Source: a virus. Taken from it: a stretch of 44,381 bases of DNA. Shown piece by piece: positions 1-41,685 of the stretch (within the stretch, counting starts at the first letter, position 1; the number at the start of each line of letters is the position of its first letter). The translations under genes and the position numbers were made by a program. The notes below the pieces were generated by a model, which was not told the origin of the DNA, did no database searches, and was given only the letters and a program-made list of their open reading frames with translations. The stretch covers positions 1 to 44,381 of the IMG/VR virus record IMGVR_UViG_3300009073_000021. One strand, 5' to 3'.

Positions 1-1554
1 AAAGCAATACAGTTCGAACACATTATTATTCTCATAGATTTCCCCGCCTGTCGCGGCTAAAAATGCAGCGGCGTCTGTAGCCGGTAACGCCACCGGCGTT
101 ACAACTCCGTCTTCCGTTTCGATACTGGTAATAATACCACCGTCCTGATAAAACGTCTCTCGAAGATCGCCCAAATATTGGAGGCAACACGCTACGCAGG
201 TGTCGCAATCCGCTTGGATCGTAGCGCGCGACCAATGACCATCGGCATTATAAGTGGGATAGGGTCCGCTGACATCCCAAACGAGCACCCCTACCTGGAC
301 AATCTCAATAAACGGAGGAGTAGTGGTAAATACCGCCTCAAACTGGGGGACAGGGTCGAACGTCCCGTCATTAGGGTCAGATGTGGTCGCCACACTACAT
401 TCGTCCGGGTCCTCGCCCCCCTCCAGCACGCCGACCAGCACGCCGACCCAAATCTCTCCGAGGTCTGGGCAAGGCACTGCCTCCCCTCCGCTAAAATTCC
501 GAAAACTCCCCGTGGTTGGAGGCTCGTTTTTTAAAGTAACAGGGGTACCCTGCCTAAACGCCTCACAATCAAAGCACTCGGCTTGGGCCGATCCGATGAT
601 CATCGGGGCGTCTGGAGCAAGGCTATACGGGATAAATCCGTGCTTCAGTTCGACGGTCCCTATTAGATCTCCGTCGCAAACAGCTGGGGCACTACAATCT
701 GCGTAGGTTTCTACCTGCCCCACAATCACGCGAGTGTCGCCTTTCTGCGCCAAGGTGTAACGCGTCGGACCCCCTTGGTAACAAGCCGAAACAGTTGCCG
801 AGTAATAAGTTACCTTGGCATTCGTATAGGTCGGCTTGCATTCCCCATTGCTGTCCTCCCTTCCCTCGCCGCTCAAAAAGTAGCATCCGCCCGGCATGCA
901 CGGCTGCCACTCCGACAGGGTGACGCTGATACACCTAGGCATCCATTTACAAAGCCCAGTCCCCTGATCCCCAATTGCACATTGGGCATCTGGCTTCTCT
1001 GCTATTTCGCAACACGCGGGGCAGATTTCGAGACCTAACGTACCCTCCAAAATAAAATCGTTACTTGTATTTACCTTGCTTCTGCATTCGCAAGTCTGGG
1101 GGGTTTGGAAAAACCATTTAGCCAAGATTGTACCAAAACCAAAGGCGCCGCTAGTGCTCAGCCAAAACCTCCATCCCCCGCCAACTGTGATGGAGGTCGC
1201 AGTTAGCCACAACGTCTGGCAATAAGCAATCGTCTCCCCATTTGGCCCTTCCGACTCAAATGTAGCGCGGCCTACTGGGCAACCGTCGTCATAAATGCAA
1301 AGCTCAGTTTCAGTGAAATCAATACTCGTAATTGTTTTATTTGTATCTCCTACAGGAGTAGGATTGGACTCCAATGATCCGGCATCCAACTTAATCCTCA
1401 CCCCGCGATTTGTGAAACATCCGGGCTCGTCTCCTGAGCAGTCTGGCCAGACAAAGTCACCTCGTTCGCAGTTTTTACAGCCGCATTTAGCCAAGCAACC
1501 TCCCCCGGTCTGAAAGAATCGAGACCAAACGGTATGGTTATTCGGTTGCGCCAT
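1..1554 (-). CDS. Cysteine-rich tail protein, 3' end outside the window
   Basis: An uninterrupted frame of 518 codons runs from an ATG, whose A overlaps the TAA stop of the preceding gene, to the left edge. The protein has no signal peptide. It is very rich in cysteine, with a dense cluster near residues 20-55 and further CC and CxxC pairs throughout. I do not recognise the family. It follows the tape measure and two other Cys-rich genes in a coupled series, so a distal tail, baseplate or fibre-base role is likely. If the window closes into a circle, the frame ends six codons past the edge (about 524 residues) and overlaps the start of the next gene by about 44 bases. Confidence 0.85.
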   Translation of the reverse strand, partial: MAQPNNHTVWSRFFQTGGGCLAKCGCKNCERGDFVWPDCSGDEPGCFTNRGVRIKLDAGSLESNPTPVGDTNKTITSIDFTETELCIYDDGCPVGRATFESEGPNGETIAYCQTLWLTATSITVGGGWRFWLSTSGAFGFGTILAKWFFQTPQTCECRSKVNTSNDFILEGTLGLEICPACCEIAEKPDAQCAIGDQGTGLCKWMPRCISVTLSEWQPCMPGGCYFLSGEGREDSNGECKPTYTNAKVTYYSATVSACYQGGPTRYTLAQKGDTRVIVGQVETYADCSAPAVCDGDLIGTVELKHGFIPYSLAPDAPMIIGSAQAECFDCEAFRQGTPVTLKNEPPTTGSFRNFSGGEAVPCPDLGEIWVGVLVGVLEGGEDPDECSVATTSDPNDGTFDPVPQFEAVFTTTPPFIEIVQVGVLVWDVSGPYPTYNADGHWSRATIQADCDTCVACCLQYLGDLRETFYQDGGIITSIETEDGVVTPVALPATDAAAFLAATGGEIYENNNVFELYCF

Positions 1555-2303
1555 TACGCGGCTCTCCCATCGCCGATGAGATCGATTTTGCCATTGCAAC
1601 AATTTATGAACAGATTTGACTCCGTGCCGCTGTTAAGGATTTTTACCGAGCATTCATCTGTCTCATTGACGATGTCGATCTTGCCAATGCAGGTGTAGAT
1701 TTCGCCGTCGACCGCAGCGACATTATTGGCTTCGTCATCAGGATCGTCGACGCCGCATTTCCACGGCGTCGATGTTGGCAGGGCCGTTACATCTCGGACG
1801 ATGACGTCGACGCCACGGATGCACGCGCATAGGCATCGCTCTGCGGCGCTGGTTTCTACGTCTAGAGTGCCCGCCTTGATTTCGATGCAAGCTAAGATGT
1901 CATAGATGCCCGTCGCAGGTAGAGGCATTGTCGCATCCCCATCCGTAGGCCAATCCGATCCCTCGAAGGTGGGCTGATTGGTGTACTGCGTGTTACCACC
2001 GCAGGATGTCGACAGGCCGAGAGGTTTAATCCAACCATGCTGGATATTCAGCAGAGCGTTGCCATCGTCGTCATTAGTCTTCGTCGGCTTAAATGGATAG
2101 CCGGTTTCAACAATCGGACCGCCAGCGGGAACCTGAAAATTACAGACCGGACGAATCCCGTCAGAGCATTGATCCCAGGTGATGCACCCATCCGCCGCAG
2201 GCAACAGGCATCGCCGACGCATCCATTGACGGATCGCCCGAATGGTCCGAGGCCCAGCGACTTGCCCCGCGTCTAGCTGGAGCGGTAAATCGTCTTGGCT
2301 CAT
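1554..2303 (-). CDS. Cys-rich distal tail protein of unknown function
   Basis: The 249-residue protein starts with MSQDDLPLQLDAG and carries about twenty cysteines, including CACIRG and a CC pair near the C-terminus. There is no membrane segment or signal peptide. The start codon sits in an ATGA overlap with the upstream stop, and its own stop overlaps the next start, so it is translated as part of a tightly coupled tail operon. Position after the tape measure suggests a tail-tip or baseplate component. I see no family motif. The late position and shared Cys-rich style with both neighbours support a virion role, which remains inference. Confidence 0.8.
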   Translation of the reverse strand: MSQDDLPLQLDAGQVAGPRTIRAIRQWMRRRCLLPAADGCITWDQCSDGIRPVCNFQVPAGGPIVETGYPFKPTKTNDDDGNALLNIQHGWIKPLGLSTSCGGNTQYTNQPTFEGSDWPTDGDATMPLPATGIYDILACIEIKAGTLDVETSAAERCLCACIRGVDVIVRDVTALPTSTPWKCGVDDPDDEANNVAAVDGEIYTCIGKIDIVNETDECSVKILNSGTESNLFINCCNGKIDLIGDGRAA

Positions 2304-3127
2304 GGTCCGACGCTTCCCCCGTAGAGCTTGCGACTAACCCCAGGGCATCCGTCCCAAGTCTGATAAATCGTATAGGTTCCGTTATCGTTATAGGTAACTC
2401 GCGGAACATTCTTAATCCACTCCATGCCGTTCGGGAAATTCAAGGCGGCGCAGCTGCTAATATCCCCCTGCAGAGAGGCCGCAGAAACGACACAACCTAC
2501 ATTTTCATAAGACGCCTCGACGCCAGAACACCAGCGCGTCGTCTGCCGCTTAATCAGGCGATAACAATAGGTATCTACCGTGGTTTGCCCCTGTGCGTAC
2601 ATCTTCCAGTAACAAAAGATCAGCTCTTGGCAGGCTGCCTCCCCCCCTGCCATCTCCGTAATTATAGCTGCAGTAACTTCGCCACCGGTCTGTACCAGAT
2701 TATCAATCTGGTTATAAGCCACCAGCATCTTGGCCTGTTGCGCTGCCGTCAGCCTCCCATTATTTGCCGTAAAGGGATTGAAGCCCCCGACTTCACTAAT
2801 ATTCGGAATCGAGCCCTTGAATCTACCGCTATAAAACTTCAGCGGGACACCGCGCCGCACCGGCTCCAACTCCCATGCGCAGCTGTCTTGATCGTTGTCT
2901 GAAGGAGGAGTATCAGGATCGGCGCCCGTTGACTCCAACTGCCAGCAGAATCCCGCCTTGGTCAGCGTGGTCTCTCGGGCAGCCGCGATCTCCGCCGCTT
3001 CTTGTACCTGGATCGCGGCAGGCGTACCCTCCCAAGAATTCGTGACCGTAAAGCCAACCCCAGGCTTGTATTTACGAACGGATGAATACAGGCAGATATC
3101 CGCCCCAATGGATTTGAAAAGTGGCAT
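2300..3127 (-). CDS. Distal tail protein downstream of the tape measure
   Basis: The 275-residue protein begins MPLFKSIGADICLYSSV, and its ATG overlaps the tape-measure stop by one base (TAATG). In siphophages the gene directly after the tape measure usually encodes the distal tail protein or an adaptor to the tip, and the size fits loosely. No HMM-level similarity can be claimed from reading alone. The central part has two predicted amphipathic helices (around residues 120-175) between cysteine-bearing beta-type stretches. It is coupled on both sides and so is almost certainly real. Confidence 0.8.
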   Translation of the reverse strand: MPLFKSIGADICLYSSVRKYKPGVGFTVTNSWEGTPAAIQVQEAAEIAAARETTLTKAGFCWQLESTGADPDTPPSDNDQDSCAWELEPVRRGVPLKFYSGRFKGSIPNISEVGGFNPFTANNGRLTAAQQAKMLVAYNQIDNLVQTGGEVTAAIITEMAGGEAACQELIFCYWKMYAQGQTTVDTYCYRLIKRQTTRWCSGVEASYENVGCVVSAASLQGDISSCAALNFPNGMEWIKNVPRVTYNDNGTYTIYQTWDGCPGVSRKLYGGSVGP

Positions 3128-5196
3128 TAAATGATTTCCAATCGGGTAACGGTTTGGTTGGCGCGGAGAATTTGAGCCAGTAGACGATTCGCCTCGGTCT
3201 GAAGCCGAAGCCGCATCTCTTCCGCTCGACGATCACGACTAGCCTGCTGGAGCTCGGCCCCAACATTTGGCACAGTGAATAGCCCCCGCGCCTGAAATTC
3301 ATCGAAAGGCTTAATCGAGATCCCTTGAACCTTCTTGAGCTCATCAACCAGCTGCCGGTAATCACGAATCGCCCCTTGCCGCGCACTTTTGGCCGCCTCA
3401 AGCTCGACCTGTTGCGCGGCCTTGCGCTCTGCGACATTCTCTTCCGCCAGATTCACTCGCTCGGTGGATTGCGCAACACGATCCGCCTGATCCGCCAGAC
3501 GACCTTGCGTGGCTTCGATCTCACGGGAAAGGGTAGCAATGCGCTGACGCAAAGACAGGGCTTCACGATCGCTTGTCGTGTCCAAGCTTAAATCAAATTC
3601 TAATCCTGCCCGAGCCGACTGCAACCGTTTAAGCTCAGCCGTAATCGCCTCGTAATCTTCCCGAGCCGAATCCCGAACCGCTTCCGCTGTCACGATCTCC
3701 GCATTTTGCTCGAGTTCCCGACGCTGACGAGCCACCGCATCCGCTGACGCTTGTTGGGCCTCTGCGACCTGAATCGCCTGCTGAGCAATCCGATCCTGCA
3801 ATGGTTGGATCCGCGCCATGGTCTGCTCAAGCTGAGACTGGAATCGCACCGCGTCTTCAGACCCCTTGGTCGAGACAATCACATTAAATTCAAGGCTGTT
3901 TACAATTCCCTCGATCGCCTGAAGCTCGTTTTGGAGCGCGGTCAATTCCTCTTCAGCCGCCTGCTGAATATCATTCGAAGCCGCCACGGCAGCCGCAGAA
4001 CGAACCCCCCGCTGTGACGACGCACTCGCCAAGGTCGTTTGCGCCAACGCCTGCGCCTCTTTGGACGCAGCTGCAGCCGAACGCTCACGAGCCGAAGCCG
4101 CCTTTTGCGCTTCCGCTGCTACTTTGGCTTGGGCCTGCTGGATCTCGATGCTGATATCCGCGATCTGGGTTTGGAGCCCTAGCGCGTTGGTTACATCGCT
4201 CTCAATGGTTAAATCGTATTCAAGCCGCCCCTGACGACTCAGGAGGATGTCCAGCTTGGTTTGCTCAGAAGCAACCGCCTGAAACAAACGCGCCTCGGCG
4301 GCTTTTAATTCTGCCGTAGCCGACTGACGACGAGCCAACCTTGCCTGCAGCGCCTCCTGCTCCTGCCGCTGAAAGGCGGCATTGGCCTCCGCCTGCCTTT
4401 TTAAAATATCTTCCCGAATCTCATCGATGCTCAAAGGATCTAATCCAGCAACCGAGGCAAAGCTTGAGTTGCCACCGGTTTTGAAGAAGTTCGCAATACC
4501 GCGGGCCGCCAAGGCGAAACTTCCGGCAATCGTTGCGCCTGCCTTTACGCTGTTGCGCTCAAGCCTCGCAAGCTCCTGGGAATACAACGCCATATTATTT
4601 AGCAGTTCATCCTCAATGATTGTCCCAGCTTCGCGAGCCGCATCTGTAATCCCGCCAATGCCATCCGAAGCCAATCGCTGAAGCAAGGGCCGAGCCTGCA
4701 AAGCATTCTCCCCTAAAATCTTAACCTGAGCGCTGTAATTGCCAGTCTTCTGTTCGCCTTCAGCCACTTTTGAAAGTAGATCACCGATATCGCCATTCAG
4801 ATCCGAGGTTGATATCCCCAGATCTCGGAACGATTGAAGCAACCCCGTATTCCCGTTTTGCGCTTCGCTTGAGTTCTTTTTCAGGTCTTTGAGAATGTCG
4901 TTAAGCGCCGCCGTCTCACCTCCCAGATCCCGCTGGACCGAAGAAAGAGCCTGGTACTGATCAACCTGAACCCCAAGGATATCAGCCGTCCGCGTCAACT
5001 CCCCCGCTGCATCCAACTGCTTTTTAACGAAGCTCGTTACAGCACCAACCGCAAAGGCCCCTGCGATCTTGGCACCCAGATTATCAAACCGGTTGCCCAT
5101 ATCTTCCGCAGTTTTTGCGGTCTGGCCACGAACCTTATCCAGAGTGTTGAAATACCCCGAAGACTGAAGCCCCATCTTTACAAAAATATTCGCCAT
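3127..5196 (-). CDS. Tail tape measure protein
   Basis: This is the largest tail gene (689 residues). The N-terminal 60 residues end in a hydrophobic, glycine/alanine-rich helix (GAKIAGAFAVGAVTSF), then comes a domain seen in many phage minor tail proteins (LTRTADILGVQVDQYQALS). From about residue 255 to the end it is one long Ala/Gln/Glu/Arg-rich coiled coil. Tape measures set tail length and act in DNA ejection. Within the coil, LEYDL (325), LEFNV (435) and LEFDL (532) mark three imperfect repeats of roughly 100 residues. The gene starts a transcription unit behind a motif shared with three other late genes, and the assembly-chaperone-like gene lies just upstream. Confidence 0.9.
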   Translation of the reverse strand: MANIFVKMGLQSSGYFNTLDKVRGQTAKTAEDMGNRFDNLGAKIAGAFAVGAVTSFVKKQLDAAGELTRTADILGVQVDQYQALSSVQRDLGGETAALNDILKDLKKNSSEAQNGNTGLLQSFRDLGISTSDLNGDIGDLLSKVAEGEQKTGNYSAQVKILGENALQARPLLQRLASDGIGGITDAAREAGTIIEDELLNNMALYSQELARLERNSVKAGATIAGSFALAARGIANFFKTGGNSSFASVAGLDPLSIDEIREDILKRQAEANAAFQRQEQEALQARLARRQSATAELKAAEARLFQAVASEQTKLDILLSRQGRLEYDLTIESDVTNALGLQTQIADISIEIQQAQAKVAAEAQKAASARERSAAAASKEAQALAQTTLASASSQRGVRSAAAVAASNDIQQAAEEELTALQNELQAIEGIVNSLEFNVIVSTKGSEDAVRFQSQLEQTMARIQPLQDRIAQQAIQVAEAQQASADAVARQRRELEQNAEIVTAEAVRDSAREDYEAITAELKRLQSARAGLEFDLSLDTTSDREALSLRQRIATLSREIEATQGRLADQADRVAQSTERVNLAEENVAERKAAQQVELEAAKSARQGAIRDYRQLVDELKKVQGISIKPFDEFQARGLFTVPNVGAELQQASRDRRAEEMRLRLQTEANRLLAQILRANQTVTRLEII

Positions 5197-6470: not shown

Positions 6471-6977
6471 TTACGCTTTCTTTTTGTCCTTGGCTTTTGC
6501 GTCACCTTCTGGAGCCGTGTCTTTGGCCGCATCACCTTCTGGAGCCGTCAGCGGGGCTGTCAGCGGTGCAGTTGCACCATCAGGACACCACTCCTCAAGA
6601 ACGACGTTGTATGTATCGCCAGAACCTTGATCGCCCCCTTTCTGGTTGGTCAAACTTGTGACCCGCCACTCGGTTGCGCCATAAGGCTGAAAAGCAAATG
6701 CCTTAGATCCACTGAAAGGCGCTTTTCGGGCAACACAGCCTTGGGGGAAGTCTCTGTATATATTCCCGCCATAAGATTTTTTGCAGGCAAACTGCATCGT
6801 GATGGTGTGGCGAACCTTCGTTTTAACCGAGCAATCATTGCCCAGGTAATCGGTCCGTTTTACTTCTTCGATGGTAGATCCGACCGAACAGCTCTCGATG
6901 CAGAGATGCGGACACAAGCTCCGCATATCGGTGGTTTTAAGCTCGTCGCCTGAAAATTTATCTGGAATTTTGGCCAT
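6471..6977 (-). CDS. Probable major tail (tube) protein
   Basis: The 168-residue protein begins MAKIPDKFSGDELKTTD, with GAGG nine bases ahead of the ATG. Size and position (after the tail-terminator-like gene, before the chaperone) fit a tail tube subunit. The first 130 residues look beta-rich with eight cysteines. The last 35 are low complexity, with APLT and APEGDA repeated and a lysine-rich end, and the DNA shows matching short tandem repeats. The tube assignment rests on synteny. Confidence 0.6.
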   Translation of the reverse strand: MAKIPDKFSGDELKTTDMRSLCPHLCIESCSVGSTIEEVKRTDYLGNDCSVKTKVRHTITMQFACKKSYGGNIYRDFPQGCVARKAPFSGSKAFAFQPYGATEWRVTSLTNQKGGDQGSGDTYNVVLEEWCPDGATAPLTAPLTAPEGDAAKDTAPEGDAKAKDKKKA

Positions 6978-8479: not shown

Positions 8480-9451
8480 TTAGCAGTCGTCTTCTTTTTC
8501 AGCCGTCGCATTCGCCAAGGCTTCCGCCTCGATCAAGGCATCGACATCGCCCTCCGCAAAAGCCGCTTCGACTTGAGCATCCGCCTCAAGAATGATTTCC
8601 GCGTAGTCTTGGCCCATTTTCAAACCGGCCAGATTCGCGTCAGCATAATGCACCCCGGCAAAGGTACGGTACTGCGCAAAATGATAAGACGAATCGTAAA
8701 CCACGTTCAGCGTCTCCTGCGGAAGATCCCAAAACTTCTGAATCAACGCAAAGACCACACCCGCAGCCGCGCCATGACCGGCAACGAATTCGGGATGTCC
8801 TGGGCATCCTTCAGGGTACGCGGTAAAAACCCCGCCATCGATCTGGAAGAGTTCTTCAGGCCGCAAACGCCCAAAGAAATACTTCGTCGGAAAGACACAT
8901 TCATCAAAGGTACGGGCGATAATGCTCAACACCCGCGCCTGACGCCCAACCCGCTCGACAAAGCCAACGTGAGCCGTAGATCCACGAGGCGAAAAGCCTT
9001 CGGAGAACAACCAGCGCTCAATAAAACGATACAAGTCCAAAGGATGATCCATCCGGACCGCAGCTGCAGCCGATTTTGCATCCGTAATCCCCGCCAACTT
9101 CAGCGGGGCAGGAATAACCGCCCCATCAAAAGCAGGGTTCGGACCGTCATAATGCGCCTTTAGAAAAGCACTAGGCCACAAATCAGATTGCACCTGAGCG
9201 ACAACATCCTCGACTTCAGCCGCCAAGACCGCGAATTCATCACTGCCAGGCATCGCGGGCTCAGGAATCGAAAGCACATTCGCGCCAGCACGAGGCGAAA
9301 CAAGACCGGTAAGGGTTTCACCCTCGCCACGAGGCCCGAAGTCAACCGAGTCAGATGTCAGCGGGAAGGTAAGCGGAGCGATTGCGCCTTTCGAGAAAAA
9401 GGTCTTGGCCATCAACGCGCACTTGGCTTTAAAAAGATCGAGATGCTTCAT
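8480..9451 (-). CDS. Vanadium-dependent haloperoxidase-like (PAP2 superfamily) enzyme
   Basis: The 323-residue protein carries the complete vanadate/phosphate pocket of the PAP2/vanadium haloperoxidase superfamily in order and spacing: K190-x6-R197-P198, then HPEFVAGHG (A224, G225, H226), then R262-x5-H268-x2-D271 within YRTFAGVHYADANLAG. The stretch YPEGCPGHPEFVAGHGAAAG resembles bacterial haloperoxidases more than lipid phosphatases, and there are no transmembrane helices. Such enzymes oxidise halides with peroxide; relatives hydrolyse phosphate esters. The chosen ATG gives MKHLDLFKAK; the frame stays open upstream through a terminator hairpin and the 3' end of the decoration gene, so longer forms are rejected. 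No strong Shine-Dalgarno is visible. The location between capsid and neck genes is very odd for an enzyme. Confidence 0.85.
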   Translation of the reverse strand: MKHLDLFKAKCALMAKTFFSKGAIAPLTFPLTSDSVDFGPRGEGETLTGLVSPRAGANVLSIPEPAMPGSDEFAVLAAEVEDVVAQVQSDLWPSAFLKAHYDGPNPAFDGAVIPAPLKLAGITDAKSAAAAVRMDHPLDLYRFIERWLFSEGFSPRGSTAHVGFVERVGRQARVLSIIARTFDECVFPTKYFFGRLRPEELFQIDGGVFTAYPEGCPGHPEFVAGHGAAAGVVFALIQKFWDLPQETLNVVYDSSYHFAQYRTFAGVHYADANLAGLKMGQDYAEIILEADAQVEAAFAEGDVDALIEAEALANATAEKEDDC

Positions 9452-9469
9452 GGTAAAATAGAAATTGGG

Positions 9470-9503
9470 AAAAAGGCCCTCCCTCGTGAAACGAAGGAGG
9501 GCC
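9470..9503 (-). terminator. Intrinsic terminator after the capsid-decoration genes
   Basis: On the minus strand a 12-bp stem (GGCCCTCCTTCG paired with CGAGGGAGGGCC, one mismatch, five-base loop) is followed by TTTTT. It lies between the decoration protein and the haloperoxidase-like gene. It would make capsid transcripts end here most of the time and lower expression of the genes beyond. Confidence 0.85.
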
Positions 9504-9524
9504 TCCAGGAAGGTTAATGAACAA

Positions 9525-9810: not shown

Positions 9811-10866
9811 TTAGCCCTTCGCTTTCGTCACGAGGCAGAAACTCTCTGGCTTGATGACTTTCATCGCAGGTTCTGCGTAAATGTTGATGCCACAAGACTC
9901 ATAGCCGTTCATGACGAAATCCATCCACATGGTGATACCCGTTTTCGGATCGCGGAACGCCATACGGTTTTTAACCCCAACCGGAAGCATGTCGCTGTTG
10001 GTAATCGCACCAAACTCTTGCAAGCCACTGAGAGGTTTACCGTCGAGGTTGATCCATTGACGAGTGTTGAATGCCATACCGGATTTAACTCCGAATACGC
10101 CACCAATCTCGGCCAAATCACCCTCGCAGAGTTTCTCGAACTCCATGATGTTGATCCCAGCCGTCTGAGAATTCGGAAGCTCACCACCGGTGATGATCGC
10201 GTTACCGTAGGACTCGGTAGGCATTTGCTTGTCACAACCGAGTTCAGCAATGAGCTCGGTGTAGTAATCGACGCCGAGCATCCCGCAGATATTCGTGTCG
10301 CGACAGGCTTTTTTGAAGTGGGAACGAATACCCAAAAGATCGCGCCACTGGAAAGCAGCTGGATCAATAGACTGAACCCCAGCCCCTTCATTGAACTCAG
10401 TGACTGCCTCTTGAATCAAGAGCAAGCCCTTGATCATGATCTTGCAGGCAACCGCGTTGATGCCGTAACGGATTTCGTTGACGATGCTACGATTGAGCAT
10501 GTCATTGTTCCAGCAGTTAAGCATCTCAGGCGTCAATTTGAAGCAGTAGCGACAGATGTCGTCGATTTCTACTTCAACCGGAGTAAGGCAAGGCCCGCAA
10601 CCCTTCAACGCACCACGATCAATGGTTGAGTCGGTTTTTCCGTCAAGAGATCCGTAGAAATCAGCGGCAGGAATGGTTTCGGCTTTGCCTTCAAAGGTTT
10701 GGCAATGGAGGGTGAGCTTGTTGCAACGCCCTCCCATTGAGCTCATGGTGTCGGTAGATCCGATTTCGTCAATGCCGAAGCACTTGTCGAGGTCGAGACC
10801 GACCTTATAAAGGTCTTCGATAACAATGGAGGTCAATTCCTCCTGGATGAGTGGAATAGATGGCAT
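9811..10866 (-). CDS. Major capsid protein (HK97-fold expected)
   Basis: The 351-residue protein starts MPSIPLIQEELTSIVIEDLY, with AAGGA six bases before the ATG. It follows the protease-scaffold gene and precedes a small head gene and a terminator, the standard place for the capsid subunit, and the length is usual. The C-terminal half has the look of an HK97 P-domain region (GVFGVKSGMAFNTRQWINLDG, then a beta-rich end). It holds an unusually high number of cysteines (C29, C48, C55, CGPC near 90, C105, C108 and others). There is no obvious cleaved delta domain, since the protease gene carries its own coiled-coil extension. Confidence 0.85.
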   Translation of the reverse strand: MPSIPLIQEELTSIVIEDLYKVGLDLDKCFGIDEIGSTDTMSSMGGRCNKLTLHCQTFEGKAETIPAADFYGSLDGKTDSTIDRGALKGCGPCLTPVEVEIDDICRYCFKLTPEMLNCWNNDMLNRSIVNEIRYGINAVACKIMIKGLLLIQEAVTEFNEGAGVQSIDPAAFQWRDLLGIRSHFKKACRDTNICGMLGVDYYTELIAELGCDKQMPTESYGNAIITGGELPNSQTAGINIMEFEKLCEGDLAEIGGVFGVKSGMAFNTRQWINLDGKPLSGLQEFGAITNSDMLPVGVKNRMAFRDPKTGITMWMDFVMNGYESCGINIYAEPAMKVIKPESFCLVTKAKG

Positions 10867-10875
10867 GGTTAATCC

Positions 10876-12333
10876 TTAGGAGGTTTTAGAAAGTTGGTTT
10901 GAAAGCGCCTGACGATCTTGGTCCGACAGCTCTTTGAAAAAGGCTTGAGTAGCTTGGTGGCCTTCGGCCTTGGCAGAAGCCAACGCTTCGACCAAACTGG
11001 TTGCAGACGCTTCGGGCGCGACGCCAGATGGGACGGCAGGGCCACCACTCGACGCGTGTTTAAATTCCGCTTTGCCGGCCAAGACCGCTTTATGCGAATC
11101 GAGGTCAGCTAGAGCCGTAGAAAGGTCCGCTTGAGCCGTCGCCAGCACGGTGGCGAGGTTCGACTTTTCAGCATCCAACGCATCGCGCTGGGCTTCAGCC
11201 GTTGCAACCCGCTCAGAAAGCAAATCGCGCTCACGAGTAACCGCTTCCGCCGTAGCTTGAACCGTACGAAGCTCGGCCGCGTGACGATCCGCCTGCAATT
11301 GCGCCATCGTAGGCGCTGGAGCCGGTTCAGAGGCGTCAGAGTCTTTCGGCTCATCCGCGTCGCCTTCCGCATCGCCTTCAGGAAGCGTAACCCCAAGGTA
11401 ATCCGCGCCAGCTTGCGCCAAATCCAAATCACCTTCCGCGAGAGTAGCTAAATCGACGAGAGTCGATGTATCAGCTTGCCCCATCGCGCTCGCGAGGCCG
11501 GAAACAATTCCAGCCTGATTAGTATCATCGGTTACCATCGCGGTAACCGCATTAAGAAATAAAGCGCCAAGACCGGCACCTGCTTTGCTATTATTCATAG
11601 TCTGCCCTTTTTTGGCATGTTTGGTTTGAGAGGCGGGGCCGGTCTCGGACCGCATCGAAGCAGCCGCTCGGAGCGCCTTAGAAATTTTGACGCGTTCATC
11701 GCCATGAGGAAGCATCCCCACGCAAGCCGCGATTTTAACCGGAGCATCAACCACTGTGATCTTCTTCAGTCCGTAATTTGAAGCAGTAGCACCGGAGATC
11801 GTGAGCTCGTTCTTCATGTGCGCTCGCCATTCCTCTTTGCTGAGGTCTGAATTCTCCGCGTAAATACCAGCCAAGCGGTCCGCAGTTTCCTGAAGCTTGC
11901 GATGCGCCTTTTCGAAATCGGTCAAATTGCCGTAAATCCCCATTAAAGGCTCATGCAGGAAAAGAATCGCCGCAGTTGGCAGAATGATTTCATCCGCTGC
12001 AAAAGGGATAACCGACCCCATAGATGCACCGATCCCCATAATCTTCGCGGTAACATGAGCAGGATGATCCTTGAGGTAATTGTACATCGCAATCCCCTCA
12101 TCGACGCATCCACCATAACACTGGATATTCACTTGGATACGATCCCCGGCACCAAGCCCCAGCGCGTCAATTTCCCGCTTGAAGGTCGTGGCCGTATGCG
12201 CGTCCGTAGCGAAGTCCGCCCAATCACTGTCGTAATCAATGTAACCGTAAAGGTCGACTTCGCCAGAGCGTGAGCCGTCCGCCTGGTCCGTGACCATCGC
12301 GCTAATATCAAATATGTTAAGTTTTTTACTCAT
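10876..12333 (-). CDS. ClpP-type head maturation protease fused to a scaffold domain
   Basis: Residues 1-200 form a ClpP-like serine protease: QCYGGCVDEG resembles the ClpP PGG loop, Ser104 lies in GIGASMGSV as nucleophile and His127 in LFLHEP. The usual Asp position is not clear (GLKKITVVD). Residues about 250-485 are Ala-rich, acidic, then coiled-coil (about 330-420), as expected of a capsid scaffold. An internal ATG at 11598 (MNNSKAGAG) would yield a separate 240-residue scaffold from the same frame, as in lambda C/Nu3. The start codon lies two bases behind a late-gene leader motif. Confidence 0.88.
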   Translation of the reverse strand: MSKKLNIFDISAMVTDQADGSRSGEVDLYGYIDYDSDWADFATDAHTATTFKREIDALGLGAGDRIQVNIQCYGGCVDEGIAMYNYLKDHPAHVTAKIMGIGASMGSVIPFAADEIILPTAAILFLHEPLMGIYGNLTDFEKAHRKLQETADRLAGIYAENSDLSKEEWRAHMKNELTISGATASNYGLKKITVVDAPVKIAACVGMLPHGDERVKISKALRAAASMRSETGPASQTKHAKKGQTMNNSKAGAGLGALFLNAVTAMVTDDTNQAGIVSGLASAMGQADTSTLVDLATLAEGDLDLAQAGADYLGVTLPEGDAEGDADEPKDSDASEPAPAPTMAQLQADRHAAELRTVQATAEAVTRERDLLSERVATAEAQRDALDAEKSNLATVLATAQADLSTALADLDSHKAVLAGKAEFKHASSGGPAVPSGVAPEASATSLVEALASAKAEGHQATQAFFKELSDQDRQALSNQLSKTS

Positions 12334-12335
12334 CT

Positions 12336-12364
12336 TCTACATAAAGGTCGGGAGTTATACCCCC
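12336..12364 (-). promoter_or_regulatory. Late-gene leader motif, copy 2 (protease-capsid unit)
   Basis: On the minus strand GGGGTATAACTCCCGACC then TTTATGTAGA, followed by AG and the ATG of the protease. It lies inside the last codons of the portal gene, so its conservation is not explained by a shared protein. See copies at 5208, 14280 and 43902. Confidence 0.65.
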
Positions 12365-13911
12365 GACGCTTCCTCCCCGTCTGATTCACTAGATGAGTCC
12401 GCCCCTTCAGACGCGACTTTGGCCGAAGCCTCGACCGACGTAAGCTGTCCAGGCACCGCCGCATTGATGATATCCCGCCACGTAAGCCCCCCGCCAATAT
12501 CCTTGGCGACTTCCATGGCCGCCTTGATCTCGTTGCCCTTCTCGGCAAGCATCTCGTTGATGCTCAGGCCCATATCGATCGCCTTTTCCGTAAGCACAGG
12601 ACACCCAAGGTTCCATTGCTCCTTCATGGCGGACGCCTCTTTGCCAGGATCAAACTGAATCTCCCTAGGCCCAATGATCCGAAGCTTATGCTGTTCCGAG
12701 ACTTCAACCCCATTCGGAAGCGAGCGAGTTGGAGCCGCCGGCAAAAGCCCGTCACGAATCCCCATGAAGATTTGCCAATGATACCAAGGCGTTAACACCT
12801 CGGCCAAATCACAGGCCATCGCCTTGGCAGAGTCATGATCCCGCTTGAGAATATAACGCCCCGCTGAGAAAGAGGCGCTCGTCTTGCGGGTTAATCCCTC
12901 CGGTGACATTCTCAGGCAACTGGCGACATGCTCAACACAAGCCGCCATATAAGGAATAATCGTCGCGTTAGGCGTCGCGGAAGCCAACGACTTCGCATCC
13001 GCAGAAGGATCGTTGCTGTAAAGCATCTTGCCGAATTCAGTATCTTCCTCATGGATCTTGGCACCCGACTCAAGATCACGACTCAGATCCCCCATGCCCT
13101 CCGCAAACTCCGAAGCACCTTCACCCTTGATAAACCAGGCATGTAGCGCATCGAGAATCGCCTTGGAAATAATCTCTTGATCCAACCGCTCAAGATCCTT
13201 GATCTTGTTCAGAACCGGCCACAAATCACCGGTTCCGCGCTCTTGGTCGAAACGGATATCCCGGGTCCAGCGAATCATGCTTTCCTCTTCGACCGAATTC
13301 ACCTTCTCCCGATCAATCAGCCCCTTTTTCGTGCGCTGGGCCACCCAGTACCGGATCGGCTTGCCCGAATCGCGATCACACTGCACCCCGTCCGTGATCG
13401 GATCACGAGGCTCGACATCCTTGCCCTTGCGCTTCTTGGGCTTCGGGGTACAGATCCGACATCCTTCGATCGGCTGAAGCAATCCAGACTCGACGCGATT
13501 GATAAACAATTCGCCTTCAAACATCCGATGGATCAAACAAAGGCGCTGAAACTCGCGCATCGTGTAGCGCTCGCGAACATCGACCTTCTTGGATCGTTCT
13601 TGAATAAATTCTTGCGCCTGACGGTTCCACTCTGGATCAGACGTATCAGGCTTAAACTTCAGGCCCTCTTTGCCGAGTACCAGGTCAATCGCGTTGCCAA
13701 TGATCGCCCCCACCAAAGGAGAATTCCGCATCGCGTCCAGCGATTCCGCAACAAGCTGGGACCGACAACGAGTAACGCAGTCTTCAGATCCCTTTCGCTG
13801 GCGCGTCTGAATCCGACGACGCCCAGGCTTCGCCGCATCATAAGACGCATTTTCCAGCGCATCCGCAGGAACCCAAAGGCCCTTCATGTCAACGTACGTT
13901 CCCCCGCTCAT
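12355..13911 (-). CDS. Portal protein (lambda gpB-type family)
   Basis: From the ATG in the ATGA overlap (MSGGTYVDMKGLWVPAD) the protein has 518 residues; a GTG seven codons upstream is the alternative. Features of the lambda-type portal family include RNSPLVGAIIGNAIDLVLGKEG-type N-terminal helices, YTMREFQRLCLIHRMFEGE, the DQERGTGDLWPVLNKIKDL segment and TSASFSAGRYILKRD, followed by an acidic Ser-rich tail. Portals form the dodecameric ring for DNA entry and the head-tail joint. Large terminase lies upstream and protease downstream, with the connector gene directly before. Confidence 0.92.
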   Translation of the reverse strand: MSGGTYVDMKGLWVPADALENASYDAAKPGRRRIQTRQRKGSEDCVTRCRSQLVAESLDAMRNSPLVGAIIGNAIDLVLGKEGLKFKPDTSDPEWNRQAQEFIQERSKKVDVRERYTMREFQRLCLIHRMFEGELFINRVESGLLQPIEGCRICTPKPKKRKGKDVEPRDPITDGVQCDRDSGKPIRYWVAQRTKKGLIDREKVNSVEEESMIRWTRDIRFDQERGTGDLWPVLNKIKDLERLDQEIISKAILDALHAWFIKGEGASEFAEGMGDLSRDLESGAKIHEEDTEFGKMLYSNDPSADAKSLASATPNATIIPYMAACVEHVASCLRMSPEGLTRKTSASFSAGRYILKRDHDSAKAMACDLAEVLTPWYHWQIFMGIRDGLLPAAPTRSLPNGVEVSEQHKLRIIGPREIQFDPGKEASAMKEQWNLGCPVLTEKAIDMGLSINEMLAEKGNEIKAAMEVAKDIGGGLTWRDIINAAVPGQLTSVEASAKVASEGADSSSESDGEEASGV

Positions 13912-14279
13912 CGACGACCCCGCGAATGACACCGACGAGAGCGCCCAAGATTCGCATTATTGCAAGCCCAGCCCGTAGGCGCAGGCGTCCCGCAAAGCGC
14001 TTCAATATCGGCGATGCACTTACAAACCCAATTGTAAGCCGTCAGGATGTCAGCCGGTCCACGGAAAGAGAACGAGCGCCCGCGCACCGAATAGCTAGAA
14101 AGGTTGCAATCCTCCCAAGCAAGCGTCTTTAGCTCGCGCTTGGCCGCCAAAAGCTCCGCCAAGTCCTCAGGGATTTTATCATACTCCGCCGCAAGCAAGT
14201 CCTGAATCTCCTGAATCACTTCAGGAGACGGACCAGCTGGGGGAGGTTTTTGGGGGTCTGGAATTAAATCTTGGCTCAC
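13908..14279 (-). CDS. Head-tail connector, gpW-like
   Basis: The protein begins at GTG directly after leader-motif copy 3 (VSQDLIPDPQKPPP, 123 residues). A proline-rich start is followed by two helices flanking a short hairpin, with SYSVRGRSFSFRGPADIL at the turn, the pattern of gpW-type joining proteins. It sits just upstream of the portal, as W does in lambda-like phages. The C-terminal 20 residues are Arg-rich. Reading the same frame further upstream would cross the motif and a hairpin, so the GTG start is preferred. Confidence 0.75.
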   Translation of the reverse strand: MSQDLIPDPQKPPPAGPSPEVIQEIQDLLAAEYDKIPEDLAELLAAKRELKTLAWEDCNLSSYSVRGRSFSFRGPADILTAYNWVCKCIADIEALCGTPAPTGWACNNANLGRSRRCHSRGRR

Positions 14280-15231: not shown

Positions 15232-17073
15232 CTAAACATTCAGAGGGCGACAGTACACCGGCTTCCCGCCAATCTCATGAATCCGAGCCCCCACGACGCA
15301 GTTTTTAAAACAATCGAACCAGTCAATCCGCGACCGCGCCTTCTCAACCCGTCCATTTACCATCTTCACCCCGCTAAGATGCGCCCTCAACTCGTCCGCT
15401 GCATCCGTAGGCAGATGCAATCCCACGTTCCCCTCCCCCGCAATTAATGCCAGGGCTTCCCGAGTAAACAGATCGTTCCGAAAGCCAATGTGTAAAACCG
15501 TGTTTTTCTTCCGCTTCGTGGGCTTCCCCGTCTTTATGCAACGACGCGAGGCCGTCCACGGAAGATCAAACTTCGCGGTCCGGTCCTTCCGATCCTCTTC
15601 TTTCTTCTCCGCGCTCGCAGGCGTAAACGCACTGCAAAGACTCCAACGATGGGCAAGGCCGAAGCTCCGAAGCTCGTCTTGCCGCTTTGCATAGCGCTGA
15701 TCCACCATCATGCGGACACAACTATGCTGCACGATCAACTCCTGCATTTCCTCAAGCCCGAAGGTCTGCCCCGCGCCATAAATTCCAAAATCACCATCCT
15801 CGATGCATTCCAAAATCATCCAGTATTCGCGGTCCTTCTGGATGTCCCCGCCCATGATATAAACCTTTTCCTTCTTGCTCAGAATATCGAAGTCGCCCCA
15901 GATATCAGGCGCCGTCTTCGCCTTCTGGCACAGCAACGGAAGAAGCTCCGTACCGGAATGGTAGCCCAGCAGATTCCGCTCCGTCAGCGTATCCAGGGTA
16001 ATCGAGGTTTCTTCATCATCCGTAAACGGTTCCGCCAAGTATTCGCCATAAACCGCCCGCATCGCAGTCGGGTCCTTCTTCATAATCGCCTGCAAATACT
16101 TCGTGGCGATCAGCTCCCAACTCAGGAAAGGCGACATCATGCCATGGACCGAACGCGAGCGAACCCCAGGCAAAGCGTGTTCATTCGTCGGAACCCATTC
16201 CCCCGTCGCCACGATCTTCTTGCGATCCTTAAAATCGATCTCCGTCCCGCAAGGCGTCACATAGCGAAGCGTCGACGCCACCCGATTCAAGTCCCAGTTT
16301 TCCGTAAGCGGATCTTTCGCCCCCTGGTCCCATTTTAACCCGTCATCCGAATCCGAATCCCCAAAGCGAAACCGGAACGGCTTGCCCGTCTTCGGATCTT
16401 GCATAAACCAATAGCGCTGATCCCCCTCAAGAAACAAATCCCACATCGGGTCTTCATCCATCGGCGCCCGAAGCATCGGGTTTAACGAGCTCCCCGCGTA
16501 GATCGTAGAAAACGGAAAAGTCACCGTCCGGTTTTTCAACATATCAACCAGTATCGCTTTCCACAAGCTCAGCTCATCCGCCACAATCAAATCGAAACCT
16601 GTCTGCTTCAGCGTCGACGCGCCCCCAGGCCAACCCAGCATGCAATCCATTTGCGGGTACTTGATAACATGTTCATTTGAGATCGCCGATTTATAAAGCC
16701 GTTGCAGCTCAGGAGACAACTTCATCCCCCGCTTGACTCGCGTATCAAACGCTTCCTCCCCGCCCTTTTGATCCGCTGCAATAAACAGAGTCGGCGCCGG
16801 CTTGTGGATCTTCTTCCAACGCATCGCGGTCAAAAAGTGTTCAGACATCGCCGAACGAGTAGACTTCACCGTATAATCAAATTTCGTAAACGGATCATTT
16901 ACCGCCTCCATCACCTCCTTATAAAAAGGAGCGAAGTCAGGATCAAACGGACCCATCCGTGGCGTATCATACTCAGGCGCCCGCGAATAATTAAAGTTCT
17001 CTGCCGCGTACTGCCAAACCGGAATGTCTGGAAGCGGCCGAACCTGAGCCGCCAAAGAAGAAGCCGTACTCAT
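15232..17073 (-). CDS. terL: Terminase large subunit (GpA-type)
   Basis: The 613-residue protein is an ATP-driven DNA-packaging motor with nuclease. The ATPase has a deviant Walker A at K70-STRSAMS, Walker B at 161-167 (DLIVADE) and a YAGSS coupling motif near 193. The RNase H-like nuclease begins around residue 420 (IMGGDIQKDREYW), continues at MMVDQRYAKRQDEL and ends near RIDWFDCFKN. This style and length match the lambda gpA family, which usually makes cohesive ends. Its start overlaps the TerS stop by four bases. Confidence 0.92.
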   Translation of the reverse strand: MSTASSLAAQVRPLPDIPVWQYAAENFNYSRAPEYDTPRMGPFDPDFAPFYKEVMEAVNDPFTKFDYTVKSTRSAMSEHFLTAMRWKKIHKPAPTLFIAADQKGGEEAFDTRVKRGMKLSPELQRLYKSAISNEHVIKYPQMDCMLGWPGGASTLKQTGFDLIVADELSLWKAILVDMLKNRTVTFPFSTIYAGSSLNPMLRAPMDEDPMWDLFLEGDQRYWFMQDPKTGKPFRFRFGDSDSDDGLKWDQGAKDPLTENWDLNRVASTLRYVTPCGTEIDFKDRKKIVATGEWVPTNEHALPGVRSRSVHGMMSPFLSWELIATKYLQAIMKKDPTAMRAVYGEYLAEPFTDDEETSITLDTLTERNLLGYHSGTELLPLLCQKAKTAPDIWGDFDILSKKEKVYIMGGDIQKDREYWMILECIEDGDFGIYGAGQTFGLEEMQELIVQHSCVRMMVDQRYAKRQDELRSFGLAHRWSLCSAFTPASAEKKEEDRKDRTAKFDLPWTASRRCIKTGKPTKRKKNTVLHIGFRNDLFTREALALIAGEGNVGLHLPTDAADELRAHLSGVKMVNGRVEKARSRIDWFDCFKNCVVGARIHEIGGKPVYCRPLNV

Positions 17074-17699
17074 TCCTCGTCTTCGTCTAGATCCAGCTCA
17101 TCCCCCAAGGCATCCAACTTGTCAGCGTACCAAGCTCGCCACTTTTTATCATAAGCCTCAGCCAACAGATAAAGATCCGCGCCAAGATCAGCGGCCCCCG
17201 CCAGCCATTCCTCATGCCCCTGCATCTGGACAGAAAGAAATTCATGCATCCGCTCAACATGAGACCGTCGTGTTATCAATTTTCCCCGAAGCTTCATGGT
17301 TCGGGTCATGGCATATTTAGCGTCCCACTTAATCCGCTTCGCCTTGTCCCGCTCAAGATCTGGCGAATCCTCCGCCGACTTATTTTTCACCGCCTGGACA
17401 AAATCGAGCCAAGCCTGAACCGGCCAACCCCACTTCTTTTTAGAAGGAGCGCCTTCAATCTTCCGAAACTTCTTGGTCAACGTAGTCCGATCGATCCCAA
17501 CGATCTCCGCCAGCTCAGTCAAGGTCTTCACATGCTTGGGATGTTTTTTCTTATTTTTAACCGGCTCATCTTTAAGACGAGACTCTTCCAGCCGATTCCT
17601 TTGCTCGCTCGTCAGGGGCTTCCCCGCCTGAACCCGCTTGAGAATATTGATTAAATCAGCATCAAGCGCCTTGCCAACCGTATCCGCTAAGTTACTCAA
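17070..17699 (-). CDS. terS: Terminase small subunit
   Basis: The 209-residue protein has a central helix-turn-helix (LTELAEIVGIDRTTLTKKFR, about residues 60-80) followed by a W/P-containing wing and a long helical part with an acidic C-terminus. Small terminases recognise the packaging site and recruit the large subunit, whose gene follows with an ATGA overlap. An HTH in the first half and a helical region for TerL contact are typical of the Nu1 group. The start overlaps the methylase gene by eight bases. Confidence 0.8.
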   Translation of the reverse strand: MSNLADTVGKALDADLINILKRVQAGKPLTSEQRNRLEESRLKDEPVKNKKKHPKHVKTLTELAEIVGIDRTTLTKKFRKIEGAPSKKKWGWPVQAWLDFVQAVKNKSAEDSPDLERDKAKRIKWDAKYAMTRTMKLRGKLITRRSHVERMHEFLSVQMQGHEEWLAGAADLGADLYLLAEAYDKKWRAWYADKLDALGDELDLDEDEE

Positions 17700-18894
17700 G
17701 CTCTGCCTTTTCGCCTGTCAGGTTCTCCCAGCGCTGAACAATAACATCGCAGTAGGCAGGCGACAGCTCGCAACCGTAGCACGTTCGTCCAAGCTGTTCA
17801 GCCGCGATCAGCGTTGTTCCAGACCCGAGGAACGGGTCGTAGACTAGATCGTCCTTATCACCGTGATGCCGAATAGGGCGCGCCATGCACTCGATTGGCT
17901 TTTGGGTACTGTGGCCCGTTTCCGACTTACTTGGCTTATCAATATCCCAGACTGTCGTCTGCTTCCTGTCCCCCTGCCACTTCGCTGTCGCCCCCTTTCT
18001 AACACCATACCAGCATGGCTCATGCTTATGATGGTAATGACCTCGACCAATTGCGAGCTGGTTCTTGGCCCATATCAGCAGGTACCTAAGTACAAAATCT
18101 GAAGATTCAAGTGATTCAGCGACTGTCTTTGTGAAAACTGAGGCGTGCCAAACGTAGCAAACATCGGCCTGACATAGCGCCCAAGCTTCTGACCAGTCTG
18201 CCCGATCATCGTTCTCTACCTTGCCGACGGCTCTCCCATCGCTGGGAGAGCCGTCGGCACGCATTGCCTGGTTTCGCCAGTCAGCATCATACTCAACGCC
18301 ATAGGGCGGGTCCGTAACCATCATAAATGGCGATTGGTCATTTAAAACTTTCCCAACCACATCCGCGTCCGTCGAGTCACCGCAGATCAACCGATGCCGT
18401 CCAAGCTTCCAAACATCCCCAGGCTTGGTCGTCGGATCTTCTGGCACCTCTGGCACCTCATCATCTTCGACTTCGGGTGTTTCATCAACACCGATTTCAA
18501 GCTTCAAATCCTCTTCAAACTTCTCAAGATCAAAGCCCCAGCTTTCAAGGTCAACCGAGTCGAATTCAGCGGAAAGAATACCCAGGTCAAACTCACCTGT
18601 ATTTTTATTCATGCGGATATTCATTTCCCGCTCGCGCTCAAGATCGTATTCAACCTCGACGGTTGGTACCTCCTCGATGCCAAGCGCATGCGCAGCGCGG
18701 ACCCGTTGGTGACCGCTCACCAGAATATTCAATCTTTCAGGATGCATATTTACGATGACCGGTTCAACAAAGTCGCCCCGCTTGATACTATCGCAAAGTT
18801 CTCTGAATTGTTCGTCACTGATTTTACGTGGATTATACTCTGCCGCGATCAGATCACGAACAGGGCGCATAATTATTTTTGTCACCGTTTTCAT
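17692..18894 (-). CDS. ParB-N domain fused to a DNA methyltransferase
   Basis: Residues 1-95 are a ParB/Sulfiredoxin-type domain (LIAAEYNPRKISDEQ, then VSGHQRVRAAHALG). A Pro/Glu-rich acidic linker follows, then a DPPY-class methyltransferase: DPPY at 195-198 before the SAM motif DPFLGSGTT near 353, the beta-class order used for N6-adenine or N4-cytosine methylation. Such fusions are common next to phage terminases and may protect DNA or mark packaging sites; no paired nuclease is visible, so it is an orphan. Confidence 0.9.
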   Translation of the reverse strand: MKTVTKIIMRPVRDLIAAEYNPRKISDEQFRELCDSIKRGDFVEPVIVNMHPERLNILVSGHQRVRAAHALGIEEVPTVEVEYDLEREREMNIRMNKNTGEFDLGILSAEFDSVDLESWGFDLEKFEEDLKLEIGVDETPEVEDDEVPEVPEDPTTKPGDVWKLGRHRLICGDSTDADVVGKVLNDQSPFMMVTDPPYGVEYDADWRNQAMRADGSPSDGRAVGKVENDDRADWSEAWALCQADVCYVWHASVFTKTVAESLESSDFVLRYLLIWAKNQLAIGRGHYHHKHEPCWYGVRKGATAKWQGDRKQTTVWDIDKPSKSETGHSTQKPIECMARPIRHHGDKDDLVYDPFLGSGTTLIAAEQLGRTCYGCELSPAYCDVIVQRWENLTGEKAELE

Positions 18895-34759: not shown

Positions 34760-35160
34760 GAACACCCCCCTGATAAGTATACATTTGGAGGCGGTTCATC
34801 TTTTGCGATTCTATAAACGCTCTGTATTTCCTCCCCTTCAGTGTCATATTTAAGCCAAATTGAAACAAATTGCCCATCTGAAAATGACGGAACGCACCAA
34901 GAAGGAAGCGCCATCATGGTCTCAAAAATGTAATCCTGAAAAAACCACCGCTCGCCATCTCTGCGAAGCCACCCAGAATCGTAAATTGGCGAGCTCAACT
35001 CATGCTGCCATTCGTGCGTATTAAAATTGCATGTCATCCAATGCATGACCCGCTCGCTACGGACAATACCCAAGAGAGGGATCGGACCAGCGTTGCGAAT
35101 CCACAACTCAAAAAACACGCGGACAAATGGGTATAATATATTGAGAACAAACCGATTCAC
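34756..35160 (-). CDS. Hypothetical membrane-anchored protein
   Basis: GTG overlapping the upstream stop (TAGTG) gives 134 residues. The N-terminus (NRFVLNILYPFVRVFFELW) is hydrophobic and could anchor it in the membrane; the rest is Trp-rich and soluble-looking (HWMTCNFNTHEWQHEL). It lies between the metzincin and the holin candidate and is coupled to both. Confidence 0.6.
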   Translation of the reverse strand: MNRFVLNILYPFVRVFFELWIRNAGPIPLLGIVRSERVMHWMTCNFNTHEWQHELSSPIYDSGWLRRDGERWFFQDYIFETMMALPSWCVPSFSDGQFVSIWLKYDTEGEEIQSVYRIAKDEPPPNVYLSGGCS

Positions 35161-35756
35161 TATTCTTCCTCGTCCAGCTCGCAGGCAGACACAGCGCCCT
35201 TGCAAATCTTAATCCGAGCGCCCAGCGCCCCTTGAAAAGCAACAACATCCGCAAGCATAAAGCGCGCATATTCAGGCCCCCGAAGCGTTGGCCCCATAAG
35301 CGCCCCTTTTTCTTCAAGGTGCGGAATATTAAACGTATGCCCCGTCTCATGACCAGTAGCGTCAATCGTTTCCCCGAGGTGATTCATCTCAAGATCCGCC
35401 TCGTCATAAATTTGAACCCCATCAAGGCGAGTTCCCCGAGGAAGATAGGCTTTGGCCACCGTACCGCCAACCCCATCAATCCGCCCGATCGAAGCCTTAA
35501 TGTCAGCCCGTTCGGGGCGATCAACGAAATCAAAATCGATATTCGTCCACTGAGCAATCGCAGTCAGCGCCGCCGTCATCGGGCGAAGCAAATCCCGCTC
35601 CGCCCATACCGTGATGACCCCACGGTTAAGCAGATCGAAGTCCAGCTCGGCCCCCGTCTTGCCAGGCATCCGCGCCCAGTTCAGCGCAAGCGGGATATTA
35701 ACCGCAAGACAGCCAGAGCAGTCCCGCGCTTTATATTCTTCAGGTATTTCTATCAT
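35160..35756 (-). CDS. Metzincin (matrixin-like) zinc metalloprotease
   Basis: The 198-residue protein has HETGHTFNIPH (H136, E137, H140, H146), the extended zinc motif HExxHxxxxxH of metzincins, followed by the Met-turn in GALMGP (M154). The usual Gly at the eighth motif position is Asn. IAQWTNIDFDFVDRPERADI upstream is typical of matrixins. No signal peptide is visible; it may act on the host surface from the virion or aid lysis. Metzincins are rare in phages. Confidence 0.82.
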   Translation of the reverse strand: MIEIPEEYKARDCSGCLAVNIPLALNWARMPGKTGAELDFDLLNRGVITVWAERDLLRPMTAALTAIAQWTNIDFDFVDRPERADIKASIGRIDGVGGTVAKAYLPRGTRLDGVQIYDEADLEMNHLGETIDATGHETGHTFNIPHLEEKGALMGPTLRGPEYARFMLADVVAFQGALGARIKICKGAVSACELDEEE

Positions 35757-37631: not shown

Positions 37632-37635
37632 AGGT

Positions 37636-40065: not shown

Positions 40066-40067
40066 AA

Positions 40068-40379
40068 TTAGTTACCCTTTTTGGTGTTGCGTTTAGCGGT
40101 TTTTGCAGGAGCTTTCGACTTGGCTGGCTTCGCAGGATCGGCCGCATCCTCGGATTTTGGTTCTTTCACATCGACCACGACGTCCTTCTCGGAAATCAAT
40201 AGCTCGATGGCAAAGATCGCCTCAAGCGCAGCAATATGATCCTCAACGGTAAGCGTCTTCTTAGCAACCAGCTTCTTCAAAGATGCCGTCGCCTGGGCCA
40301 TGGTCTGAGGCTCTTCGGCCCCAGCTGGTGCGAAGCTCAACAGCCCCGCCAAAATAAATAATGAGAGTAAAGTTTTCAT
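40068..40379 (-). CDS. Small exported protein
   Basis: The 103-residue protein has a Sec signal (MKTLLSLFILAGLLSFAPAG, then AEE), a helical middle (LKKLVAKKTLTVEDHIAALE) and a Lys/Pro/Ala-rich tail (KPAKSKAPAKTAKRNTKKG). It lies between two fibre-like genes and could be a periplasmic chaperone or small subunit for them. The function is not known. Confidence 0.65.
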   Translation of the reverse strand: MKTLLSLFILAGLLSFAPAGAEEPQTMAQATASLKKLVAKKTLTVEDHIAALEAIFAIELLISEKDVVVDVKEPKSEDAADPAKPAKSKAPAKTAKRNTKKGN

Positions 40380-40397
40380 GTTTGATTAGGAAAAGGA

Positions 40398-41681: not shown

Positions 41682-41685
41682 AATA

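Follow-up and report, generated by a model that had tools for sequence, protein, structure and literature searches.

Does a phage that carries a haloperoxidase-like gene among its virion genes make an enzyme that oxidizes halides, or does the gene product do something else with the same fold? Seaweeds and cyanobacteria rely on vanadium enzymes to produce oxidants of bromine and chlorine. Vanadium haloperoxidases are known from algae, fungi, and bacteria (PMC10427571; PMC4859513), and a literature search that covered few subscription journals turned up none from a phage. The stretch of DNA that we analyzed (the window) is the whole of the virus record IMGVR_UViG_3300009073_000021, a single contig of 44,381 bases. 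It most likely represents a temperate tailed phage, because it encodes a GpA-type terminase large subunit (15232-17073; GpA_ATPase, E = 6.3e-16; phrog_15, 1.1e-36), a lambda-family portal protein (12355-13932; Phage_portal_2, 4.4e-42), a ClpP-type head maturation protease (10876-12333; CLP_protease, 1.3e-20; phrog_94, 1.8e-43), and a tape measure protein (3127-5196; phrog_9570, 2.8e-11), all on the minus strand, together with a CI-like repressor and a phage integrase. One minus-strand frame (1-1602) is open at the left end; once the ends are joined, it stops some 20 bases inside the right end, and a second frame crosses the same junction (window ends 1-1602 and 44074-44381). Because these frames continue across the joined ends, the genome may be circular or circularly permuted, without a terminal repeat.

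The haloperoxidase-like gene lies at 8480-9451 on the minus strand, where the open frame (9451 to 8480) has 323 codons from Met1. Its relatives, described below, begin at a short F-x-K-G segment, so the true start is probably Met14 at 9412 and not Met1. The gene is real. It is located between head and tail genes that all share its strand, with terminase, portal, and head protease upstream and the tape measure gene downstream; only 13 bases separate it from the next open frame, and its GC content and codon-position GC are like those of the neighboring virion genes. Upstream, a strong terminator-like hairpin with a U-tract (9503-9470, minus strand) was found by folding the stretch 9440-9524 (minimum free energy −31.1 kcal/mol, z −4.9). 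It ends about 18 bases before Met1, and no promoter-like site was found between it and the gene. Expression of the gene, and of the tail genes behind it, therefore probably depends on read-through or on a promoter that escaped recognition. An annotated terminator also adjoins the capsid gene in Acinetobacter phage Scuro, whose gene order is similar. An earlier reading made from the sequence alone (the sequence-only reading) had proposed this frame, with no strand given, between decoration and neck genes and just after a strong terminator. The frame, the terminator, and the virion-gene location were all borne out, whereas the decoration and neck roles come from gene order only and have no family match.

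Beyond the hairpin, the frame at 9811-10866 (minus strand; 351 aa, 15 Cys) is probably the major capsid protein, an assignment made from gene order only because the frame follows the head protease as in phages of related order. It has no family match, a search with it found no related phage, and its single-sequence model (pLDDT 34) is unusable. Several other genes on the minus strand are unusual. Adjoining the terminase, 17692-18894 encodes a ParB-like domain fused to a DNA methyltransferase, and a related ParB-methyltransferase-type gene follows the haloperoxidase gene at locus L035. The gene at 35160-35756, near the end of the late module, has a metallopeptidase domain of the Matrixin type (PF00413, 6.9e-7) and may encode a peptidase that acts in lysis or in the virion. 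Several successive late-strand frames within 35823-43899 have signal-peptide-like or lipoprotein-like N-termini, which is odd for tail proteins; examples are 37636-40065, which also encodes a Peptidase_G2 autoproteolytic domain, 40068-40379, and 41686-43899, whose homologue at L030 has no leader.

The window protein matches Pfam PAP2 (PF01569) with E = 6.3e-6 and 26.4 bits, just below the curated cut-off of 27.2; PHROGs and NCBIfam searches gave nothing useful. Hydropathy analysis found no membrane-type hydrophobic stretch and no signal peptide-like segment (maximum over 19 residues 1.39, versus 2.24 for the membrane PAP2 protein at L003), and the protein thus lacks the trait of a membrane PAP2 lipid phosphatase.

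We searched for relatives by scanning IMG/VR with a DNA pattern for GxPxHPx[FY]x[SA]GH, which yielded 25 stretches. Five of them encode compact proteins of 272-313 aa. In four of these the alignment covers most of the window protein (34-37% identity, E 4e-28 to 4e-42), and in the fifth it covers the second half. A profile search returned nine loci, eight of them compact and three of these new, and two further scans (with a second motif and a second profile) returned already known members only. The compact family comprises the window protein and eight others of 262-344 aa, all from uncultivated and very different phages, a count drawn from 2.9 million viral contigs and bounded by the exact-pattern seeding. 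In the family alignment, the nine proteins are 25-34% identical. A tblastn search of 50,697 phage records with three members of the compact family and one of the long viral bromoperoxidase-like proteins gave no match, nor did one of plasmid records with the window protein; bacterial homologues were sampled by one GTDB pattern scan. Candidates that we rejected were L002 and L004, wrong-frame matches of a short motif peptide that contain no gene, and L003, an ordinary membrane PAP2; L006, among the 25 stretches, looks spurious.

Most of the nine members sit in tail, lysis, or portal neighborhoods. At L034 the gene shares 4 bases with the end of a tail-fiber gene and is followed by endolysin, terminase, and portal genes; at L037 it directly precedes a portal/head-tail adaptor-type gene, at L032 it lies downstream of portal-type and tail-spike-like genes, and at L033 an endolysin gene follows after about 3 kb. 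The L030 gene comes just after large cysteine-rich genes, among them a homologue of window 41686-43899. The setting is not always a virion neighborhood, since the L035 gene stands between a protease gene and the ParB-methyltransferase-type gene, and at L031 and L036 the neighbors mostly have no assigned function. Four of the records (L030, L031, L034, and L035) contain a clear terminase, and the L033 record a marginal one. An all-against-all comparison of flanking genes gave sporadic pairs only and no obligatory partner. L033 (7146-7484) and L036 (5999-6304) encode homologous small proteins near the haloperoxidase gene with a GSR...DSDWD nucleotidyltransferase-like motif; the L033 protein has no Pfam match.

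Long bromoperoxidase-like proteins (about 420-576 aa), whole or as fragments, are encoded by the remaining 19 stretches and by L038. These genes (L007, L008, L010-L015, L017, L018, L020-L025, L027, L028, and L038) come from uncultivated viral contigs, and two of the long proteins match solved bromoperoxidases with E-values of 1.7e-44 and 1.3e-52. Since a search for terminases succeeded in only part of these records, some of the contigs may be cellular or prophage edges. In a tree, a 100/99 branch splits compact from long proteins, with a warning from the tool that long branches meet around L036.

Three motifs on the minus strand define the putative active site. Motif 1, K190-X6-R197-P198-E199-E200 (residues 190-198, 8858-8884), and motif 3, R262-TFAGV-H268-YADA-272 (residues 262-272, 8636-8668), were located by translation and alignment; motif 2, Y212-PEGCPGHPEFVAGH-226 (residues 212-226, 8774-8818), was located by alignments that included a PDB bromoperoxidase and contains H219, A224, G225, and H226. 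The vanadate-pocket residues K190, R197, G225-H226, R262, and the axial H268 are present. In an alignment of 21 proteins (nine compact and 12 long), K190, R197, P198, H219, H226, R262, and H268 are invariant. The sequence-only reading had claimed all pocket residues at the correct spacing. Its list stands for K190, R197-P198, G225-H226, R262, and H268, and it overlooked H219, which is found seven residues before H226 within the EGxPxHP stretch common to bromoperoxidases. A complete active site was wrong in detail: the motif expected at the axial His is RX5HX3D, but D271 comes one position early, at H+3, which leaves A272 at H+4, while the Ser of PSGH is replaced by A224.

Both changes recur in relatives. 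The H+4 residue is Asp in seven of the nine compact proteins and Ala in two (window and L033), and it is Ser or Glu in three of the long bromoperoxidase-like proteins. Most relatives also have Ala in place of the PSGH Ser, and L036 has AMH where the others have AGH. The solved bromoperoxidase of Acaryochloris marina (HPSYGAGH in the PDB chain), a biochemically active enzyme (PMC11871015), has Ala there as well, so this Ser is no strict requirement. From these alignments, neither change would prove inactivity. Nevertheless, with the H+4 Asp and the PSGH Ser both absent, the catalytic competence of the window protein appears uncertain.

The spacing from K to R is KX6RP in the compact family, as it is in phosphatases and in fungal chloroperoxidase; Corallina and most of the long viral proteins have KX7RP. 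Directly upstream of motif 1, F187 occupies the halide-specificity position K-3, which is Phe in eight of the nine compact proteins, the exception being the Ala of L034, and Trp in all 12 aligned long viral proteins. The bromoperoxidases of A. marina and Corallina have Arg at this position, the chlorinating enzymes of Ascophyllum and Curvularia have Trp, and Phe or Trp at K-3 raised chlorination in the C. pilulifera (Corallina) enzyme (PMC11871015). The Phe at K-3 leads us to predict that activity in the window family, judged from this residue, would extend beyond bromide.

To which branch of the superfamily does the protein belong? Against solved proteins, the nine-member profile gave E-values of about 1e-10 for red-algal and cyanobacterial bromoperoxidases, 1.6e-6 for the Zobellia haloperoxidase, and 8e-4 at best for acid phosphatases, in line with the haloperoxidase-like label of the sequence-only reading. 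An AlphaFold2 model of the window protein (mean pLDDT 77.3, pTM 0.75) is mostly good over residues 59-317, which form one helical domain, and unreliable over residues 1-58. Foldseek with this model returned PAP2/haloperoxidase superfamily matches only, a bromoperoxidase first, in agreement with the PF01569 match just below the cut-off and with the PAP2 core that had been named as a check. The model-based comparison supports membership in the superfamily and cannot separate peroxidase from phosphatase, because the Foldseek scores for bromoperoxidases and acid phosphatases overlap. TM scores normalized to the target were 0.55-0.62 for class A acid phosphatases versus 0.20-0.24 for the much longer bromoperoxidases. 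Two four-helix bundles in about 500-670 aa would be expected of a haloperoxidase of the bromoperoxidase lineage, whereas the window protein has one well-predicted helical domain and 323 aa.

We lean, with a little more confidence than doubt, towards a soluble single-bundle haloperoxidase of the vanadium-bromoperoxidase lineage that is made with the late virion proteins. Speaking for it are the profile preference, the invariant pocket, the F-x-K-G segment, A224 as in A. marina, the Foldseek result, the lack of a membrane-type stretch, the phage relatives, and the Phe at K-3. Speaking against it are the absent HxxxD Asp (window and L033), the phosphatase-like KX6RP, the overlapping Foldseek scores, and the missing first bundle, since the substrate channel of the A. 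marina enzyme needs an adjacent subunit (PMC11871015). Some of these points would fit a soluble phosphatase of the same fold, a compact bundle that cleaves phosphate esters during infection and retains bromoperoxidase-like motifs by ancestry. The size and one-bundle build, the TM scores, and the KX6RP spacing agree with class A acid phosphatases; moreover, the pocket residues are common to haloperoxidases and acid phosphatases, and apo-haloperoxidases can dephosphorylate (PMC4859513). We nevertheless regard a phosphatase as unlikely, if still a serious contender: the E-value of the sequence profile is seven orders of magnitude lower for bromoperoxidases, the EGxPxH, RPE, and N-terminal F-x-K-G stretches are characteristic of those enzymes, the PSGH Ser is replaced, and no signal peptide-like or membrane segment suits the protein to an envelope role.

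Loss of the HxxxD Asp and the PSGH Ser in a gene located between head and tail genes might also mark a degenerate or repurposed copy, a structural or binding protein of the virion that kept the fold and lost catalysis; the same Asp is lost in L033, and L036 has AMH for AGH. This seems improbable to us, because every member retains all side-chain contacts to vanadate (K, R, H, R, H) although the proteins are only 25-34% identical, a conservation that would be unlikely without selection for a functional oxyanion pocket, and because the Asp also varies (Ser, Glu) among the long bromoperoxidase-like proteins. The fold is versatile, since NapH3 (8cxl), a solved homologue in the superfamily, catalyzes a rearrangement, and the phage pocket could similarly serve to rearrange or oxidize one particular molecule of the phage or the host, with no free hypohalite formed. 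We consider this very unlikely, as neither a substrate nor biosynthetic neighbors were identified and 8cxl is a weak match to the window model (E 0.05). That an assembly artefact or cellular contamination put the gene into a phage contig is scarcely credible. The window is a single contig with no close relative, and the phage and plasmid records gave no match; against this, homologues occur in eight more phage contigs (a clear terminase is present in four of the records, and portal, tail, or endolysin genes in others), and the gene matches its virion neighbors in base composition and is tightly packed on their strand. The sequence-only reading had named a lack of relatives in other phages together with signs of assembly error as grounds for doubt, and the eight relatives remove them.

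For the favored haloperoxidase, halide oxidation is likely, as far as the residues tell. The protein would correspond to the C-terminal catalytic part of a bromoperoxidase plus a short N-terminal F-x-K-G segment. By homology, K190, R197, G225-H226, R262, and the axial H268 would hold vanadate, H2O2 would convert the bound vanadate to peroxovanadate, and this would oxidize iodide or bromide to hypohalous acid; chloride might be oxidized too, because position 187 is Phe. Production would presumably coincide with that of the late virion proteins, and the target could be the particle itself, through oxidation of cysteine-rich capsid and tail proteins, or the surroundings of the lysing cell.

The particle is a candidate target because virion-module proteins of the haloperoxidase phages are unusually rich in cysteine. 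All five open frames in the window that have at least 150 aa and at least 4% Cys fall in the virion-strand module. Cysteine-rich proteins of this module are encoded on the window minus strand at 1-3127, 6471-6977, 9811-10866, and 41686-43899, and further ones at L030, L033, and L036, with 4-6% Cys in the window and up to 9.9% in L033. Mean Cys content of frames of at least 150 aa was 1.95% in the nine gene-bearing phages versus 1.15% in eight control phages related distantly through their terminase (Mann-Whitney test, one-sided, p = 0.0035), in a small sample and a post hoc test uncorrected for relatedness, with frames called mechanically and controls unmatched for host or habitat. A profile of the cysteine-rich tail gene was too divergent to search with. 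The cysteine content suggests oxidative maturation, as a lead and not a result. In animals, peroxidasin uses HOBr to cross-link collagen IV. By analogy, the minimal haloperoxidase might be a virion-maturation tool whose hypohalous acid, formed at or in the particle, cross-links cysteine-rich capsid and tail proteins, an idea that we hold to be quite doubtful.

The phage host, the compact build, and the virion-cluster setting make the window family surprising. If active, its members would be unusually small for the class and would place an oxidant-making enzyme within phage virion and lysis gene clusters. Virion cross-linking, oxidation of the host surface, and removal of competitors at lysis would become directly testable, and the proteins, in which Phe occurs naturally at a position that influences chloride use, would offer biocatalysis a compact scaffold.

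Among known proteins, the best sequence-profile relatives are the bromoperoxidases of Corallina (1qhb/1up8/7qvw) and Acaryochloris marina (5lpc/8q21). They have in common with the compact family a VHxD region, RPE, EGxPxHPxxxxGH, RxxAGVH, and the N-terminal F-x-K-G (GSFTKGLPHD in Corallina). The compact proteins differ in being phage-encoded, in their 262-344 aa versus about 600-670 aa, with most of the N-terminal bundle missing, in KX6RP instead of KX7RP, and in Phe instead of Arg at K-3; the window protein differs further in the absent HxxxD Asp. The long IMG/VR proteins (L007, L008, L010, L013, L015, L017, L018, L022-L025, L038, and others) have the same motifs in the same aligned order but are larger, with Trp at K-3. 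The vanadium iodoperoxidase of Zobellia (4cit, 4usz) belongs to the same superfamily, with the same pocket and a fold match, but is bacterial, has about 415-458 aa, and matches more weakly. The best structural matches among viral proteins are the giant-virus PAP2 proteins of Yasminevirus and Hokovirus (8.9e-6 and 3.9e-5), which differ in their 485-637 aa, in coming from viruses of eukaryotes, and in their 16-17% identity. Class A acid phosphatases (PhoN, PhoC, and the E. blattae enzyme) share the compact single-bundle size, KX6RP, and the overall fold, but their sequences match weakly, and the PSGH expected of this class is AGH in the window protein; the better-scoring matches share the bromoperoxidase-type EGxPxH and RPE.
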